A stretch of DNA of 64,000 nt from Bacteroidota bacterium (GCA_018266955.1 JAFDZI010000005.1:62001-126000), one strand, 5' to 3'. Shown: positions 53,486 through 62,660, counted from the stretch's first letter. Notes: a model not told the origin generated them from the sequence alone. Numbers and translations are program-made.

Positions 53486-55237
53486 TTATTTTAAATTCAA
53501 TAGTAGTTCTAACTCATCCAACTGTTCGTCTGCAATCGGGCTAGGTGCATCAATCATCACATCTCGCCCGGAATTGTTTTTCGGGAAAGCGATGTAATCT
53601 CTAATGACTTCATTGCCATCCAAAATAGCCACCAATCTATCGAAACCTAATGCCAAACCTGCATGTGGCGGAGCTCCGTATTGGAAAGCATTCATCAAGA
53701 ATCCGAACTGTGCTTCGGCATCTTCTTTGGAAAATCCTAATAAATTGAACATTTTCGCCTGCAAATCTTTATCAAAAATTCGCACCGAACCGCCACCAAT
53801 TTCGTTGCCATTCAGGATTAAATCATAAGCATTGGCTCTGGCTTTTCCGGGGTTGGTTGCTAATAGATGAATGTCTTCCGGTTTTGGCGAGGTGAACGGG
53901 TGGTGCATGGCGTGGTATCTTTCGGTGTCTTCGTCCCATTCCAAGAGTGGGAAATCTACTACCCAAAGCGGAGCAAATTCGTTTCCTTTTCTCAATCCTA
54001 ATCGGTTGCCCAATTCCATTCTTAGGGCGGAAAGTTGGGTTCTTACTTTGTTTTCGTTTCCGGACATGAGGAAAATTAAATCTCCCGCTTTTGCTCCGAA
54101 TTTTTCTGTAATTTTCTTTAAATCTTCTTCAGAATAAAATTTATTAACCGAAGAAGTTACGGTACCATCATTTTGAAATTTAATCCAAACCATTCCCGAA
54201 GCGCCAATTTGAGGGCGTTTTACCCAGTCAATCAGTTCGTCAATTTGTTTTCGGGTATAATCGGCACAACCTTCTACATTAATTCCTACAACCAATTCGG
54301 CTTCGTCGAAGATTTTGAAATCTCTTCCTTTTACCAAATCATTTACCTCCACAAATTGCATCCCGAAACGGATGTCGGGCTTGTCGTTTCCGTAGGTTTT
54401 CATGGCATGGTCAAAAGTCATTCTTGGGAATTTTCCAAATTCTTTTCCTGTAATATCTTTCAATAAAGTGGCGGTCATTCCTTCAAAAATTTCCAACACA
54501 TCTTCTTGCTCTACAAAGGCCATTTCGCAATCGATTTGCGTGAATTCTGGCTGTCTGTCGGCTCGCAAATCTTCGTCACGGAAACATTTCACAATCTGGA
54601 AATACCGATCCATTCCGCCAATCATTAAGAGTTGTTTGAAAGTTTGTGGCGATTGAGGTAGGGCATAAAACTGTCCCGGATTCATACGGCTTGGTACCAC
54701 GAAATCTCTCGCTCCTTCGGGGGTCGATTTTATTAGAACCGGCGTTTCTACTTCAATAAAATTTTGGTCCGACAAATAATTTCTCACTTTCTGCGCCATT
54801 TTGTGTCGGAAAATCAATTTGTCTTTTACTGGATTTCTACGGATGTCCAGGTAACGGTATTTCATTCTCAATTCTTCGCCACCATCGGTTTCATCTTCTA
54901 TGGTGAAAGGTGGGAGCTGAGATTCATTTAATATAGTAAGATTTTCCACCAAAATTTCTATCTCTCCTGTTGGGATTTTAGGGTTTTTGGAGGCTCTTTC
55001 AATCACTTTTCCTTTCACCTGAATTACAAATTCTCTGCCCAATTTTTTGGCTTCCGCTATCAATTCTTCAGAAGAACGATCTTGGTCAAAAACCAATTGA
55101 GTAATTCCGTAACGATCTCGAAGGTCGATCCAAATCATAAAACCTTTGTCTCTGATGGTTTGTACCCAACCGGAAAGGGTAACTTCTTCGTTTAGATTTT
55201 TTAGCGATAACTCGCCGTTGGTGTGTGTACGGAACAT
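53486..55237 (-). CDS. aspS: Aspartyl-tRNA synthetase
   Basis: A 583-residue class II aminoacyl-tRNA synthetase. The N-terminal OB-fold binds the anticodon ([21 protein letters not shown] split: [10 protein letters not shown] at about 23-32 and F-I-D-L-R-D). Class II motif 2 is in [18 protein letters not shown] (about 217-234) and motif 3 in [13 protein letters not shown] (about 525-537). A GAD insertion domain (about 280-420) marks the bacterial type. The length is normal. It has a -7 element upstream and its own terminator. Confidence 0.97.
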
Positions 55238-55655: not shown

Positions 55656-55687
55656 TTTGTTTAATATAATAGATTGTTCTATCTTTG
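55656..55687 (+). promoter_or_regulatory. Promoter of the fimbria-like operon
   Basis: TTTG (55656-55659), a 20-bp spacer and TATCTTTG (55680-55687) are a very good fit to the Bacteroidota consensus. The first ATG (55726) follows 38 bp later. Confidence 0.75.
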
Positions 55688-55725
55688 CGGTCGCTTTTTT
55701 TGCTTTTGATGTTAAATTTAAGTAT

Positions 55726-56331
55726 ATGAAAAACAGCAGTTTGCTCAAGTATTTCATTGCGTTTTTTTTGCCTGCGGTCTATAGTGCTCAGTCCACTAGT
55801 TCGGCTATGGTTAGTATTCATTTGGGGGATTTTCACCAGATGGCGCTTCCTAAGTTGAATGACCAGATGGTGTTCTTAGATTTTAATTCAACAAAAGATT
55901 TTAACGGAAAAGAAGGGGAAGGGACTCCGGTGCTTTTGTCTTCTACGGGGATATTTAATTTGTTTGCCAGAACGGCCAACCAAGAGTTTTCCACCGTCAA
56001 TGCACATCTAACGGATGCTCCAACTTTGTTGGCGCTACAGGTGAATGGTGATGAGGTGTTGGGGCAAGGATTGGTGCAAATAGGGAATCGTTTTTCTTCA
56101 GGTTTTAATGAGGTGAAGGACGGACAGGTCTCTAAGGAATATACCCGTGCATTGCAATCCCAAGAGTTAATTGTGGCCAGCCAACCGTTGATAGGCTATG
56201 GAAGGCCAATGATGGGCAAAGCGTTAAAATTAAAATATGTGGTGTCTTCCGCGAAGGCGTATCAGTTTTTTCAGGATACAGACCCCGAAAGCGCCAATAA
56301 AGCGGTAATTTATACCATTACCTCCAACTAA
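55726..56331 (+). CDS. Pilin-like minor subunit (predicted)
   Basis: A 201-residue secreted protein, signal peptide to about residue 20 (VYSAQ). It has the same skeleton as the next gene's product: an N-terminal VSIHLGDF, matching VKITLADF there; a middle VLLSSTGIFNLFARTANQEF, matching LKVTATKTFSVVVKANAADF; and an end KAVIYTITSN, matching QTVVYTFSQP. It is longer between these blocks and more divergent, so a minor or tip-adaptor subunit is likely. It opens the operon behind the consensus promoter. ATG 55726 is chosen by the signal peptide; an in-frame upstream ATG falls in the promoter. The role is inferred. Confidence 0.6.
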   Translation: MKNSSLLKYFIAFFLPAVYSAQSTSSAMVSIHLGDFHQMALPKLNDQMVFLDFNSTKDFNGKEGEGTPVLLSSTGIFNLFARTANQEFSTVNAHLTDAPTLLALQVNGDEVLGQGLVQIGNRFSSGFNEVKDGQVSKEYTRALQSQELIVASQPLIGYGRPMMGKALKLKYVVSSAKAYQFFQDTDPESANKAVIYTITSN

Positions 56332-56378
56332 GAGTTCAATTAAACTAAAATAATAACAACTTAAAACAATTTTAAAAA

Positions 56379-56933
56379 ATGAAAAAAATTCTTTTCGCAG
56401 TAGTAATGATCGCAGGAACTTTCGCAGTGTCTAACAATGCTAAAGCTCAATCCGCTTCAACAACAGCTTCAACCAATGTAAAAATTACATTAGCTGATTT
56501 TATTACTGCTCATGATGGTAACGGTACAACTGCTGCTGCTACGCCAGGTGCAGGTGCCGAAGTTGCATTCTCTTATCCAGATGCAGCGTCTTATACAGTA
56601 GATCAAACCGTTTCTAAGGCAGGTCACTTGAAAGTTACTGCTACTAAAACTTTTAGCGTTGTAGTAAAAGCGAATGCTGCTGACTTTACTAATGGTTCGA
56701 ACACAATCCCTGTAAGTGTAATGGATGTAATCGCTACAGCACCAGGAAGTGGTACTGCAACAACAGTAACATTGTCCAATGCAGATCAACAAATTTTGTC
56801 TGGAGTAAATTCAGGGATCAAATCCATTGATGTAGCGTATAAAATTCCATTTGCTAAAGCACAATCTGATATTTTAGGTAAAGCTGCAGGAGCATACAAC
56901 CAAACCGTTGTTTACACTTTCTCTCAACCGTAA
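56379..56933 (+). CDS. Pilin-like major subunit (predicted)
   Basis: A 184-residue secreted protein, signal peptide to about residue 23 (NNAKAQ). The mature part is Ala/Thr/Ser/Val-rich with no cysteine, almost wholly beta, as expected for an Ig-like fibre subunit. Blocks: VKITLADF (about 34-41), VAFSYPDAASYTVD, HLKVTATKTFSVVVKANAADF (in part), NTIPVSV and the ending VVYTFSQP. Similar proteins in Chryseobacterium are, as I recall, annotated loosely (for example 'LysM'), but no LysM motif is seen. A hairpin terminator follows directly, consistent with high expression of this gene over those after it. Confidence 0.65.
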   Translation: MKKILFAVVMIAGTFAVSNNAKAQSASTTASTNVKITLADFITAHDGNGTTAAATPGAGAEVAFSYPDAASYTVDQTVSKAGHLKVTATKTFSVVVKANAADFTNGSNTIPVSVMDVIATAPGSGTATTVTLSNADQQILSGVNSGIKSIDVAYKIPFAKAQSDILGKAAGAYNQTVVYTFSQP

Positions 56934-56961
56934 TAGACGCTTTGAAATGAACATTTAAATG

Positions 56962-57003
56962 AGTTTCTGCATTTTATTAATTTAATTTGCAGAAACTTTT
57001 TTT
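56962..57003 (+). terminator. Hairpin with T tract after the subunit gene (attenuator)
   Basis: AGTTTCTGCA (56962-56971) and TGCAGAAACT (56988-56997) are perfect 10-bp complements, followed by seven T residues. It lies inside the operon, so partial read-through would give less chaperone, adhesin and usher mRNA than subunit mRNA. Confidence 0.75.
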
Positions 57004-57024
57004 ACTTTGCTAAAAACTATTCTT

Positions 57025-57843
57025 ATGGCTCAATCCATTTTCAAATTTTTCTCTTCCCTTTTACTTTTGGTATTCGGTATTTTTGCACATGCCCAAGGGG
57101 TAACGGTTTCGCCTACCCGTCTATTTTTCTCCGGAGATCCAGGAACGGTACAAACGCAAACGGTGAGCATTAAAAACGATACAGCTTTTCCGGTGTCCTT
57201 TAGTGTAGGTTTTAACGATTGGTACCGAGATGCCAATGGTCAAAAGCTATATTTTGCACCCAACACCTTGCCACAGTCCAATTCGGCATGGCTAAAAGCT
57301 TCAGAAAAAAATATTACCATTGCACCGGGAGCAACTAAAGAATTACAGCTTACCATGACGGTACCGGCAAATTCGCCTTCCAAATCGGTGACCAATTCCA
57401 TGTTGATGCTCACGCAAATTGCCAGACAAGACGACCATTTTTCCAAAGAAAAAAGCATAGGGATAAAGATTTTATTCGAATTTGCCCTGCATGTATTTCA
57501 CACTCCGAAAGGAAATACCAACGAAGACTTGGACTTTACCGGTATTGAATATCTGAAAAAGAAAGACGAAAATAGTGGCAATGAATTGAAATTTGTCGCT
57601 GCAAAAATTAAAAATCTAGGCAATATGAATTCCGATTCTACCGTAGAATTTGAGTTGATGAACAATGCAACCGGTGAAGAGATAAAACTAAACCCACAAT
57701 CGATTTCTATGATGCCTGGCGCTGAACAAACGGTTACTTTCCAAATTCCTACTGCCTTAAAAGGAGCCTATAAAGGAGTGGCCATTATCCGTGTGGGGAA
57801 TGAAGCCAATGTGAGAGTGGGAGAAAAAGAATTTAATTTCTAG
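57025..57843 (+). CDS. PapD-like periplasmic fimbrial chaperone (predicted)
   Basis: A 272-residue secreted protein (signal to about residue 23, FAHAQG). Domain 1 starts VTVSPTRLFFSGDPGTVQTQTVSI, the usual strand order of PapD-like chaperones (V-x-P-x-R-x-x-F), continues with SAWLKASEKNITIAPGATKELQL, and closes with a strand ILFEFALHVFHTPKG that matches the xVFxxP strand of the family. Domain 2 (about 155-272) is a second Ig-like fold. The Lys of PapD strand G1 is not clearly kept, as in archaic chaperones. It would hold unfolded subunits in the periplasm. A TTG six codons earlier is a weaker start. Confidence 0.72.
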   Translation: MAQSIFKFFSSLLLLVFGIFAHAQGVTVSPTRLFFSGDPGTVQTQTVSIKNDTAFPVSFSVGFNDWYRDANGQKLYFAPNTLPQSNSAWLKASEKNITIAPGATKELQLTMTVPANSPSKSVTNSMLMLTQIARQDDHFSKEKSIGIKILFEFALHVFHTPKGNTNEDLDFTGIEYLKKKDENSGNELKFVAAKIKNLGNMNSDSTVEFELMNNATGEEIKLNPQSISMMPGAEQTVTFQIPTALKGAYKGVAIIRVGNEANVRVGEKEFNF

Positions 57844-57872
57844 TTTCTTTTTACTTCAAAATTCCGTTGGGT

Positions 57873-57909
57873 AACCAAGGATTCTCTTTAGAATCCCAAG
57901 GTTTTTTTT
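57873..57909 (+). terminator. Hairpin with T tract after the chaperone gene
   Basis: Inner stem GGATTCT/AGAATCC (57879-57885 with 57890-57896) and outer AACC/GGTT, then eight T residues. It precedes the adhesin gene within the operon. Confidence 0.7.
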
Positions 57910-57927
57910 GAAATTAAATTGCAGCAC

Positions 57928-59367
57928 ATGAAAAAAACACAGTCTATACATCTATTCATCCTCTTTTTGCTTTGTTTTGGCTACTCAGTCAAAGCACAAT
58001 CGGTAGATGTTTATCTTACGGAGGATAATATTATTAATTATACAAGCTATGATCAGACTTTAAATTCAGGTTATTTAAACTTGGGTTGGGGTGGAGGCTG
58101 GAGAAATGGATCAGCTGCAAAAATAAGAGCTAAATTTGCTCAATTTTCATTAAATTCATCATTGAAAGTGTCGAGTCAGGCTATAGAGTTTCAATTGGTA
58201 AGTATTAATGGAAGGACACCAGGAACAAAAGAGTTGGAAGGAACAATTCCTGGGTATAAGGTTTTAAATACCAATGAGGAAGCTTTTTTTCAGCCTAAAG
58301 ATTGGGCGTCCGAAGCAGAGCCTGGACCTATACAGATGAATTATAGAATTTCTACAAGTTCATTACAACAAGAAGCTTGGGTAGGTGGTGTTTATGGAAA
58401 TACAATTGAACATAACCAAGATCAAACATTTTTGAACTATTATAAATACATAAGTCCTGGTCAGTGGACCATGAACATCCATGTTCCTTCCTTTGTGAAA
58501 TGGCGAATGGGTCAGAATTCGTTTACCAAAAATTATACATCCAAATCGGAATTTAGCAGTCCTAGTGATTTAATTTTCGATATGTCCGATTTTCAGTTTG
58601 TACATACAGTGAATGCCAATTTGGAAATTAAAAGTCAAGGGAATATACAGTTCACCCCTCATGGAGGAGGAGCGGCAACCAACTTGCCCATATCTTTGGT
58701 AGAAGCCTTCGGTACTAATCTAAGCACCAAAACACTCAGTACTTCCTATCAAAAGCTCAATTCGAGTGCTTATCCTGTTGCTGTAGGGAATAGAACCACC
58801 GTGCCTTTAAAACTCAGAATAAAATCAGCAGATATAAAACAAAATTTTTACAAAGCGGGTACCTATACCTTCAATGCGGATGTACGCGTGATTTCCACCA
58901 ATGGAAGCCCGTCCGATGTAAAATCGGTAAGTTTTACCATTGTTACCAGTCCCTTCAATACCATTACTGTTCAAGGGTCTTCAGATGTTAATTTCTCCTT
59001 TTCTAGTCCGTCAGATTATCAGTTGGGAAAAGAACAAAATATACCCAACCACCTCTTGGTGACCAACAATAAGCCGTTTGAGATTTATGTGAAAAGTGCT
59101 ACGGCCAATTTCACTTTGAATGGAACGCCCACCACCATTCCGGCTTCTATTGTCCAATTGAGCAATGGCTCCGGACAAAGCGGAATTATTACCCGCAATC
59201 TGAGTACTACTGCACAAGCGCTTATGACGGGAGCAACTCCCGTGCTGGACCAAAATGTATCGTTGAAGTACAGTATTCCGGCGGCACAAACTTCGGTATT
59301 GCTTGGGCAAACCACTGGGGCGACACCTTATCTTTTAAATGTTATCTATAGTTTTACCAATCAATAA
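57928..59367 (+). CDS. Two-domain tip-adhesin-like protein (predicted)
   Basis: A 479-residue secreted protein, signal peptide to about residue 23 (YSVKAQ). Residues ~25-220 form a unique Trp/Tyr/Asn-rich domain (LNLGWGGGWRNGS near 55). A middle beta domain spans about 225-340. The last ~135 residues repeat the subunit pattern: VNFSFSSPSDYQLG, HLLVTNNKPFEIYVKSATANF, TTIPASIV, LKYSIPAAQTSVLLG and the end NVIYSFTNQ. A unique N-terminal domain joined to a subunit-like C-terminal domain is the layout of tip adhesins such as FimH. The ligand is unknown. ATG 57928 is chosen over a TTG three codons earlier. Confidence 0.65.
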   Translation: MKKTQSIHLFILFLLCFGYSVKAQSVDVYLTEDNIINYTSYDQTLNSGYLNLGWGGGWRNGSAAKIRAKFAQFSLNSSLKVSSQAIEFQLVSINGRTPGTKELEGTIPGYKVLNTNEEAFFQPKDWASEAEPGPIQMNYRISTSSLQQEAWVGGVYGNTIEHNQDQTFLNYYKYISPGQWTMNIHVPSFVKWRMGQNSFTKNYTSKSEFSSPSDLIFDMSDFQFVHTVNANLEIKSQGNIQFTPHGGGAATNLPISLVEAFGTNLSTKTLSTSYQKLNSSAYPVAVGNRTTVPLKLRIKSADIKQNFYKAGTYTFNADVRVISTNGSPSDVKSVSFTIVTSPFNTITVQGSSDVNFSFSSPSDYQLGKEQNIPNHLLVTNNKPFEIYVKSATANFTLNGTPTTIPASIVQLSNGSGQSGIITRNLSTTAQALMTGATPVLDQNVSLKYSIPAAQTSVLLGQTTGATPYLLNVIYSFTNQ

Positions 59368-59378
59368 TTTAGTTGGGA

Positions 59379-62159
59379 ATGAAGGTTGAAATGATGAAGT
59401 ATAAATTCTTCTTTTTATTGTTTGTGTTATTTTCTGTTGGTGCTTTTGGGCAAGATAAAATGCACATGAATCTGGATGCTTATTTTGCTCAAGATACCAT
59501 AAAACTTCAAGCGGGTAAGGCTTTTTCTAATACCATAGTGCTTAAAAATAACAGTGGCGATCCCATAAAAATAGACAGTATAAAAGCAGAGAAAAACTAT
59601 CCTGGAATGTTGTTTTCTCCTGCGTATAAAGGCTTTGTACAGAATTCTGAAAATACAGAGCTTAAAATACGAATGATTGCCAGTAAGGAACTGCTTATGT
59701 CTTCGTTTTCTGAAATTGCATTTTGGGTTTATAGTAAAATAGGAGGGCAAGCCCAAAAGCAGATGATTTCTTTTAAAATAAAGAGAGAGAAAATGGACTT
59801 TGTTGCGGTTGCGGCGGTGGGAGATTTGTTTTACAATCCAACAGCGCAAGAAAATATGCTCCGTTTTTTTGTGGAAAATCAATCGTATGAGTCCAGAGTA
59901 GTTCGTGTGAAACTGAAGTTGGTGCCCGATGATTTTATCTCCGTTTTTCCAGATGAACAAATTGTACAGCTCAATTCCAAAGAGAAACAAATACTGACGG
60001 TACAATTGAAAAAAAGGCAAAATATCAACTATTATCCGGATTATAACTTGTCGGTGGAAGTATTGGACAATGACCTGAATACTACCGTATCAACCGTTAT
60101 TTTGCCCATTCGTTCTTTGTCTTCTTATAGGATGATGAATTATGATGCCAACATACAGCAATACAAAAACTATGTAGAAGCATCATACAACAACAGCAAC
60201 AATCTTAATAATTTTTATAAATTCCGAACCAATTACGAAACTAAAGTGGGCAGTAAGGCTACGGTAGGGATCAATTCTACGGTGGACTATTATCAGGAAA
60301 GTAAAAATGTCAATATCTATGATACTCGTTTGGATCTTAATTTTTCTAAATTTTCTGCCGGACTAGGGAATGTTTATGGACAGGATTACGATTTTAACAT
60401 CAGCGGTAGAGGCGTAAAGTTGGGCGCACGATTAAGTCCCAAAAGTACGGTTGAAGTCTTAGGATTGGACAATAATTATATGTTGTACACCGATTTTTCT
60501 AATGGTTTTTCTGCCGGGAAAACTGCTGCCATGCAATTGAGGCATCTTTGGAAAAAGAACCGATCTGCACAACTGAATTATGTTTTTAACCAAAACAATT
60601 TCTCTAAAGTAGACACCCAACTTTTCAATATAAAAACGCCTATTTATTCGGATTCCATACAAGTGTTAAGTTTGGAATCGGGTTTGAGTTTTGAAAATTT
60701 ATCCACAGACAATCACCAGTTGGACAAAATGGGTTGGGCCAGTGGATTGCAATATCAATACAATAAAAATCGCTGGGCAGTACAATCGAATAATTTCTAT
60801 AGTTCTCCCTATTATTCCGGTATTAGAAGAGGAGCTTTGTATTTGGACGAATCGTTACAATATCGAGCTTCGGAAAAAGATATGGTCTATCTTCGGTACA
60901 ACCAATCGCTCAATCAATCCGGTTATTTGAATGATGCGGAACCTTTGGGTTTTACAGAAAATTCAAAGTTTAACAACTTCTTGGTAGAAGCGGGTTGGGC
61001 AAAGAATGGAGTATTGCGATGGAGTATTTCGCCCAATTACATCTATCAGTACATCCATACGCCGTATAATATTTTGGAATATACCGCCTACAGGATGCGA
61101 TTGAATGTTGGGAAGTCTTTTCATCAACATAATGTCAATTTTTCTTGGGATGGGGGTTGGTCTCAATTCAACCAAAATCAAGAGTCTATTTTTGCCCAAC
61201 GATTGGTGCTGAATTATGCATACAAATTTTTGAATGTGTCCACCATGGCAGATATTAATCCAACCAATGCCTATGATCTCAACTGGTACCAAGGTGGGAC
61301 TTATGTAAATTATACTGCAAGTTTGGGAACTCGATTGGTTGCTTTAAGGAAAAAGATGATAGGCTATGTTAATTTAGGATATTCATTTTTAAATACACAA
61401 AAAACCGACAGCTTTTATCTGAATTCTAATGTAGATTATAAACTATCGCCAATGTGGTCGTTGACGGGGATGGCGTATTATAATTTCTACCATAATTCGG
61501 GTGTAATGGGTAATCCGGGTTTTCAGAATTCTAATCTTCAATTCAAAATAGGACTAAGAATGTCTTTGGGAAATTCAGCACAAGGAAATAAATTATCCTT
61601 AAAAGTCTTTGAAGACGATAACTTCAATCAAAAATTTGATGCAGGCGAAAAAGTAATTCCTAATGCGATTGTGAAGCTTAACCAGCAAATTATCGCCATT
61701 ACCAATGAAAAGGGACTTGTGAAATATGCCAATATGAAGGAAGGGGAATATGAATTATCCATTTCCAAAAACAACCAGCCAATTCCGTTGTTGGGATTGG
61801 GTAAAATTAAATTATCCAACAATACAAAATTGGAAATTCCGGTGGTAAAAACCATTCATCTACTTGGGACACTCAAGGAGCTAAAGGATAAATACGATGT
61901 GCAGCAAGCGGATCTTATGGGTATAAATATTTATGCTCAGAACCTGGAAACAGGAAAAATAACGACTTCGATAACGGAGCTGGACGGAAGTTTTAATTTT
62001 CAATTAATAGAAGGGAAATATAAATTCTATATTCAAAACGACCGTTATGAAATCCTGAACAACAACCAAGAGCTTACTTTGAAAAACAATTCAGAACCCG
62101 AAAAGTTGATATTTAACTTTAAAAATAAAGAACTCAAAATTCGTAAAAAACAATTCTAA
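59379..62159 (+). CDS. Usher-like outer-membrane beta-barrel protein (predicted)
   Basis: A 926-residue secreted protein, signal to about residue 25 (GAFGQ). Two Ig-like domains (about 28-130 and 135-245) precede a long barrel region (about 250-735) of alternating aromatic strands such as YVEASYNN and SGLQYQYNKNRWAVQSNNFY. The C-terminus has two CNA-B/regulatory-like domains; the first starts LKVFEDDNFNQKFDAGEKV (about 740-758). Position after chaperone and adhesin, and size, match an usher, but the canonical usher N-terminal domain is not recognisable. It could also be another fibre-anchoring porin. Alternative starts are ATG 59391 and 59394. Confidence 0.6.
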   Translation: MKVEMMKYKFFFLLFVLFSVGAFGQDKMHMNLDAYFAQDTIKLQAGKAFSNTIVLKNNSGDPIKIDSIKAEKNYPGMLFSPAYKGFVQNSENTELKIRMIASKELLMSSFSEIAFWVYSKIGGQAQKQMISFKIKREKMDFVAVAAVGDLFYNPTAQENMLRFFVENQSYESRVVRVKLKLVPDDFISVFPDEQIVQLNSKEKQILTVQLKKRQNINYYPDYNLSVEVLDNDLNTTVSTVILPIRSLSSYRMMNYDANIQQYKNYVEASYNNSNNLNNFYKFRTNYETKVGSKATVGINSTVDYYQESKNVNIYDTRLDLNFSKFSAGLGNVYGQDYDFNISGRGVKLGARLSPKSTVEVLGLDNNYMLYTDFSNGFSAGKTAAMQLRHLWKKNRSAQLNYVFNQNNFSKVDTQLFNIKTPIYSDSIQVLSLESGLSFENLSTDNHQLDKMGWASGLQYQYNKNRWAVQSNNFYSSPYYSGIRRGALYLDESLQYRASEKDMVYLRYNQSLNQSGYLNDAEPLGFTENSKFNNFLVEAGWAKNGVLRWSISPNYIYQYIHTPYNILEYTAYRMRLNVGKSFHQHNVNFSWDGGWSQFNQNQESIFAQRLVLNYAYKFLNVSTMADINPTNAYDLNWYQGGTYVNYTASLGTRLVALRKKMIGYVNLGYSFLNTQKTDSFYLNSNVDYKLSPMWSLTGMAYYNFYHNSGVMGNPGFQNSNLQFKIGLRMSLGNSAQGNKLSLKVFEDDNFNQKFDAGEKVIPNAIVKLNQQIIAITNEKGLVKYANMKEGEYELSISKNNQPIPLLGLGKIKLSNNTKLEIPVVKTIHLLGTLKELKDKYDVQQADLMGINIYAQNLETGKITTSITELDGSFNFQLIEGKYKFYIQNDRYEILNNNQELTLKNNSEPEKLIFNFKNKELKIRKKQF

Positions 62160-62163
62160 TGAT

Positions 62164-62202
62164 AAGCCGAACCAAACCTAGAGTTTCGTTCGGCTTTTTT
62201 TT
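62164..62202. terminator. Terminator after the fimbria-like operon
   Basis: AAGCCGAAC and GTTCGGCTT form the base stem, continued by AAAC/GTTT after one mismatch, followed by eight T residues on the plus strand. It overlaps the last codons of the convergent nuclease gene. Confidence 0.8.
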
Positions 62203-62660
62203 GACTTTCGCCATTCCCAAGGGGCAATAGGATACTGATCTTGCCAAAGCCCAATTCTTTTTTCTCTAGCAATGTTTTCTAATGTGGCATATACATCGCT
62301 GTTTGAATACTTTATGTAATGCCAAGCCAATCCATTTCGTACCAGTTCTTTATTAAGATTTTGATGATTATAGTAGATTTCGGCAATCCATCTTCCGTTT
62401 CTGTCGGGTTTTCCGGCGATAACAATCTGTACGGTTTTGCCAAAACAAAAATCAGAAACAAATTTTTTTGCACTGCTTCCAAAGGCTTGCTTCTTCTCAG
62501 GACAGTCGATGTGGGCCAATCGTATCGCTTGTTCCTTGCCATTCCATAAGATGCCTACCGTGTCTCCATCTTTTACAGCGACTACTTTTGCTGTAATGCT
62601 CTGTGATAAAGTAAATTGAATAAAAAATAAAACAACAAAAGTAAATCGTAAAGCCATCAT
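62178..62660 (-). CDS. Secreted thermonuclease-family (SNase) nuclease
   Basis: A 160-residue protein with signal peptide (to about residue 21, TLSQS) and the staphylococcal-nuclease OB-fold: VVAVKDGDTV (about 27-36), IRLAHIDCPEKKQAFG (about 47-62), with the catalytic Arg in the first part and a second in DRNGRWIAEIYYN. It should cut DNA and RNA in the presence of calcium outside the cytoplasm. The frame is complete. Its ATG lies 145 bp from that of the divergent TlpA-like gene. Confidence 0.88.
   Translation of the reverse strand: MMALRFTFVVLFFIQFTLSQSITAKVVAVKDGDTVGILWNGKEQAIRLAHIDCPEKKQAFGSSAKKFVSDFCFGKTVQIVIAGKPDRNGRWIAEIYYNHQNLNKELVRNGLAWHYIKYSNSDVYATLENIAREKRIGLWQDQYPIAPWEWRKSKKSRTKL

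Follow-up and report, generated by a model that had tools for sequence, protein, structure and literature searches.

A probable chaperone-usher-like fibre operon of Bacteroidota

The known usher barrel has 24 strands interrupted by a plug domain, and in PapD two basic residues (Arg8 and Lys112) anchor the subunit C-terminus. To our knowledge, the only pili usually attributed to Bacteroidota are those of type V. These are the FimA/Mfa1 pili for which the phylum is known (PMC11316588). Archaic chaperone-usher systems were reported from Proteobacteria, Cyanobacteria and Deinococcus-Thermus, and Bacteroidota were not mentioned there (PMC4654587). In the WxL clusters, one small and one large protein share a C-terminal domain; in AF2 predictions a WxLIP strand completes the WxL sandwich, and the paper makes no mention of chaperones, ushers or PapD (PMC10599100).

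Here, a five-gene operon was analyzed by computation. The gene set was conserved, the product of gene 3 had a chaperone fold, and that of gene 5 a barrel with C-terminal domains. The operon very probably encodes a chaperone-usher-like pathway of fibre assembly, in a Bacteroidota variant.

Layout of the locus

The window (the whole stretch of 64,000 nucleotides that was analyzed, with positions counted from its first base) lies in a genome of 2.45 Mb and 59 contigs. Five secreted-protein ORFs with ATG starts follow each other on the + strand, encoding 201, 184, 272, 479 and 926 aa; the gene number, strand and lengths given in an earlier sequence-only reading were confirmed from the ORFs. The left flank is an aspartyl-tRNA synthetase-type gene (53486-55237) and the right flank an SNase-domain gene (62178-62660), both on the minus strand. 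Each of the five products starts with a hydrophobic segment that runs up to an AQ or GQ, read by eye as a signal peptide. The five genes, or counterparts of them, are found together again in dozens of genomes, so the operon is more than a chance arrangement.

A Bacteroidota-type promoter-like string, TTTG-N20-TATCTTTG, was located at 55656..55687 (+ strand), 38 nt upstream of the ATG of gene 1. The consensus promoter of the sequence-only reading is well placed, but the window contains the pattern no less often than chance predicts (9 found vs. 6.6 expected), and only the position supports it. Directly 3' of gene 2, a hairpin with a T-run (56961..57004, + strand) was compared with shuffled sequences by folding (11-bp stem, -17.2 kcal/mol, z = -6.55, 0/200 shuffles as stable). 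It is probably an attenuating terminator, which would give high pilin and lower downstream expression; a strong hairpin at this place is expected if gene 2 encodes an abundant pilin. A weaker terminator-like hairpin was found in the gap between genes 3 and 4 (57879..57904, + strand; folding z only -1.77).

None of the five proteins reached the cut-offs of the fimbrial chaperone, usher or pilin models of Pfam and NCBIfam. In the same databases, gene 3 matched fn3_5 and WxLIP_PGBD just above the cut-offs (WxLIP_PGBD 2e-6), and gene 5 matched SdrD_B near its C-terminus. Across 198 Bacteroidota genomes, PF00577 (Usher) was above its curated cut-off in none (best 20.1 bits vs. cut-off 27.1). As no curated model fits, standard annotation misses the pathway. 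A plasmid search with the usher gave no match.

Candidate subunits, chaperone and barrel

Gene 1 (55726..56331, + strand) encodes a minor pilin-like subunit by pilin-family alignment, and gene 2 (56379..56933, + strand) the probable major pilin; neither contains Cys. Gene 1 scored 175 bits against a pilin-family model that included it and 40 bits against a model built without it, and has a counterpart in L016. The gene 2 family is kept in most loci, often in 2-5 copies. The two small proteins align with each other and with the C-terminus of the gene 4 product. The blocks that the sequence-only reading saw in the two small products are present (VSIHLGDF/VKITLADF near the start, VIYTITSN/VVYTFSQP at the end), and the same alignments bear out its division of the fourth protein into a unique part and a subunit-like C-terminal part. 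The alternating VKITL pattern is no more than suggestive of an N-terminal donor strand.

Gene 4 (57928..59367, + strand) consists of a unique N-terminal part, a middle part and a pilin-like C-terminal domain (about residues 355-479, the last ~125), and from the alignments and AF2 of its C-terminal part is a probable tip adhesin. The C-terminal part was modeled with pLDDT mostly 80-97, while the N-terminal part was not resolved in the model.

Two cysteines were found in 0/71 pilins, and the pilins gave no match to E. coli FimA-type pilins in hhalign. An archaic-type pathway, which the sequence-only reading had offered as one option, was not supported: the pilins did not match CsuA/B or CupE1 (hhalign prob 0.1; the CsuA/B query sequence was confirmed identical to 7zl4), nor PF05229 (SCPU-type pilins).

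The window pilin family matched the clade-C pilins of the same operon type (prob 97.6, E 4.5e-12, 111 columns including the signal peptide), and a clade-C pilin in turn matched TLP-1 and TLP-2 (PDB 9ikj, 9ikk; 16 chains each) at about E 1e-40; L069:4913-5701 is among the TLP-matching pilins. The window's own pilin family is distant from TLP (E 0.03). By this sequence comparison, the pilins match a Bacteroidota pilin family that includes TLP-1/TLP-2, and a relative is thus already in the PDB. The 16 chains of these entries suggest a filament.

The product of the operon is most likely a thin adhesive fibre, presumably on the cell surface, with the gene 4 protein at its tip. The same mechanism could instead yield a thin capsule-like or amorphous polyadhesin with no rigid rod (cf. 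F1/Caf1), since shape is not fixed by sequence and Caf1M was also among the VIA-align matches of the gene 3 model. We regard this as unlikely, as the large tip-adhesin-like gene and the 16-chain TLP relatives favour a linear fibre.

Gene 3 (57025..57843, + strand) was folded as a read-through fusion with gene 4, with which it shares a frame (alignment A13). Both parts of this chaperone-adhesin model folded well (pTM 0.44), the gene 3 part with pLDDT about 95. VIA-align of the gene 3 model returned SfaE (Z 14.4, 2.9 A, 177 residues), FimC (14.2), CsuC (13.8) and PapD (12.0). In hhalign, the chaperone family matched ten E. coli chaperones (prob 96.4, E 1.2e-9, 203 collinear columns); as a control, the N-terminal Ig pair of the usher was run against the same chaperones (prob 1.5). 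From the model, gene 3 is a chaperone with the PapD/FimC/CsuC fold and two Ig-like domains. The sequence-only reading had pointed to VTVSPTRLFF and HVFHTP, both present in the product, and had named the lack of a PapD-like double Ig fold in the 272-residue protein as evidence against itself. The fold was found, in its favour (AF2 pLDDT about 95, Z 12-14, profile prob 96).

On sequence, the closest relative of gene 3 is the WxLIP of Gram-positive bacteria and not PapD. A 35-member chaperone profile matched EfmWxLIP1 at 2.6e-6 over both domains and PapD-type chaperones at noise level only (FaeE 0.23). The Enterococcus faecium WxLIP also gave Z 16.9 in VIA-align (rmsd 6.3 over 230 residues). Gene 3 was not recognized by the PapD_N model at its curated cut-off; the same model matched 2/35 members of the chaperone family (best E 0.0023). 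A phmmer search of the PDB with the single chaperone returned only antibody noise. The Arg of SP(T/P)R is present in most clade A and B chaperones and was lost in several others. At the C-terminus of gene 3, the sequence is beta-rich and shows no long hydrophobic stretch.

The kinship with WxLIP is the starting point of the main rival reading of the function. In a WxL-like non-fibrous surface complex, the gene 3 product would be a WxLIP-type partner in lasting contact with the small and large beta-sandwich proteins, which the barrel would only anchor or export. Its sequence is indeed nearer WxLIP than PapD, by the values above, and WxL clusters likewise pair small and large proteins with a common C-terminal domain (PMC10599100). 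However, gene 3 has no C-terminal transmembrane helix, the pilins have no WxL domain match, a dedicated outer-membrane barrel is present, and related pilins occur in 16-chain PDB entries. Such a complex is accordingly judged improbable.

Gene 5 (59379..62159, + strand) was modeled by AF2 from 44 sequences (mean pLDDT 85.8). Two Ig-like domains (30-252) precede a barrel (265-729) and two beta-sandwiches (737-834 and 850-916). The predicted barrel has about 26 strands and no inserted plug, the longest inter-strand gap being about 17 residues. In Foldseek, FimD took ranks 1-5 (best 3.3e-12) and PapC rank 12 (1.6e-8, ahead of BtuB at 1.8e-7), with unrelated multi-Ig cilia proteins interspersed among the barrel matches; the FimD and PapC alignments span the barrel into the C-terminal domains (model 263-915). 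VIA-align placed MtrB first (Z 20.6, 415 residues), with PapC and FimD at about 15-16 and many porins and receptors at 13-16. Among the VIA-align matches listed, usher alignments alone reach the C-terminal domains; they start only at the barrel and not in residues 30-252. The profile match of the gene 5 family to E. coli ushers was weak (prob 66 and 33 with two alignments, A1 and A5), and the usher assignment therefore depends on the structure and the gene context.

The MtrB score and the many porin and receptor matches are what would be seen if gene 5 were an unrelated porin or transporter (MtrB- or BtuB-like) that merely adjoins surface-protein genes. We consider this very unlikely, given the usher-like C-terminal sandwiches, FimD at the top in Foldseek, its constant association with chaperone and pilins from clade to clade, and an operon without a cytochrome gene. 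A barrel alone is no proof of an usher, but the barrel together with the C-terminal sandwiches and the constant company makes an usher-like outer-membrane assembly pore the likely reading of the gene 5 model. Of the usher that the sequence-only reading expected in its 926-residue protein, the barrel stood, with ushers as best Foldseek matches, whereas about 26 strands, no plug and a different N-terminus depart from it. The N-terminal Ig pair (59460-60143) resembles the chaperone (prob 91.7) and could be a docking site. In relatives, a likeness of this Ig pair to FixG_C Ig domains was seen.

A Bacteroidota type V pilus (FimA/Mfa1) would suit a phylum known for such pili (PMC11316588) and can be set aside with near certainty, as no FimA-family (PF06321) match was found anywhere in the genome, these proteins included, no lipoprotein-type signal was seen in the subunits, and type V pili involve neither a PapD-like chaperone nor a barrel.

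Distribution in Bacteroidota

A search with the single usher protein found it in 12/119 relatives, and a search with the single chaperone in one MAG and two Niabella genomes. With an usher profile, it was found in at least 121/296 genomes of the family and at least 41/395 of the class, and with a broader profile in at least 24/395 genomes of the phylum at E 1e-10. These counts are lower bounds because few candidates per genome were scored. The profile searches at all three ranks agree with a lineage widespread in Bacteroidota.

The chaperone was present in the same stretch as the usher in 52/54 usher loci inspected. Of the two others, L020 stops at a contig end and L019 is an assembly without genes 2 and 3. 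A ten-sequence chaperone model found a chaperone in 16/16 of loci L062-L077, all outside its training set; the test of pairing is less circular for that reason. Usher and chaperone distances were correlated (0.96, 48 loci, shared descent uncorrected).

In the L019 locus, from a genome of the same genus, the beginning of gene 1 is joined to the C-terminal domain of gene 4 (L019:5930-6671), and the usher is intact; either the DNA between repeated pilin domains was deleted or the assembly collapsed there. The operon of Niabella defluvii (L018) is split into several ORFs, owing either to frameshifts or to errors of sequencing.

Three groups of loci were distinguished, between which gene order varies and the gene set persists. 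Group A comprises the operon of this window together with those of Niabella and of many genomes in the family. In group B, several loci adjoin AraC-type regulators, and group C has ushers of about 1000-1300 residues and pilins with DVTITMDLQPILQLNM. By eye, AraC-type regulator-like genes and a conserved alpha-amylase-like/DinB-like pair adjoin four group B loci (L022, L026, L028 and L029). The usher ORF of L164 carries both a partial, sub-threshold Pfam Usher match (E 3e-4) and a family-profile match. In this deeper form of the operon (L164:6098-9082 and L165:5770-8766), the usher ORF is in part like the present family, and the neighbouring genes read like MotA/MotB-type proteins.

Assembly model and comparison with described systems

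In the proposed mechanism, genes 1 and 2 would supply the pilins. The gene 4 product, which ends in a pilin domain, would be the tip adhesin; the gene 3 product would act as the periplasmic chaperone and the gene 5 product as the assembly pore in the outer membrane. The chaperone would lend a strand of its first Ig domain to complete each incomplete subunit, and the chaperone-subunit complex would dock on the pore at its periplasmic Ig-like domains and its C-terminal sandwiches, with the adhesin entering first. Subunits would then be joined as the chaperone strand is swapped for the N-terminal strand of the next subunit (TNVKITLADF), and the fibre would grow outward through the barrel to the surface. 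The strand lending and exchange, the order of assembly, the passage through the pore and the fibre on the surface are inferred.

The open-access literature searched on chaperone-usher systems and Bacteroidota, as far as its accessible text goes, contained no description of such an operon. The sequence-only view that the pathway may not have been described stands to that extent, and is narrowed by the solved structures that already exist for the related pilin TLP. Several defining features of the described chaperone-usher clades were tested and found absent, and the operon is for this reason not assigned to any of them. A second, chaperone-assisted fibre pathway across Bacteroidota is indicated.

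A bolder proposal is put forward tentatively, and we think it may well prove wrong. The operon would represent a separate usher class, with a wider barrel that lacks a plug and has a chaperone-related Ig pair as its periplasmic entrance; its chaperone would be a bridge in sequence between PapD and WxLIP, and pili and wall-bound adhesins would derive from one strand-lending chaperone. A plug-less usher, if true, bears on the roles of the plug and the N-terminal domain, and the WxLIP link, if true, connects Gram-negative pili with Gram-positive surface adhesins.

Compared with Fim/Pap pili, the operon has the same set of parts, namely pilins, a two-part tip adhesin, a double-Ig chaperone and an outer-membrane barrel with two C-terminal beta-sandwiches. 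It differs in that the Pfam models are unmatched, the barrel is predicted to be plug-less with about 26 strands and is preceded by an Ig pair, and the pilins have no cysteine pairs and no detectable FimA-type similarity. With the Csu/CupE archaic (sigma) pili it shares a chaperone for which CsuC is a close fold match (Z 13.8), but its pilins match neither CsuA/B nor CupE1. The chaperone is a sequence and fold relative of WxLIP over both domains, and the small and large partners with a common C-terminal domain recur in WxL clusters. In contrast, WxLIP carries a transmembrane helix and is not paired with a barrel, while gene 3 lacks the helix and its operon has a barrel; WxL domains are also reported to bind peptidoglycan. 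TLP-1 and TLP-2 are matched closely by clade-C pilins of the same operon type and only distantly by the window's own pilin family, which is linked to them through clade C.
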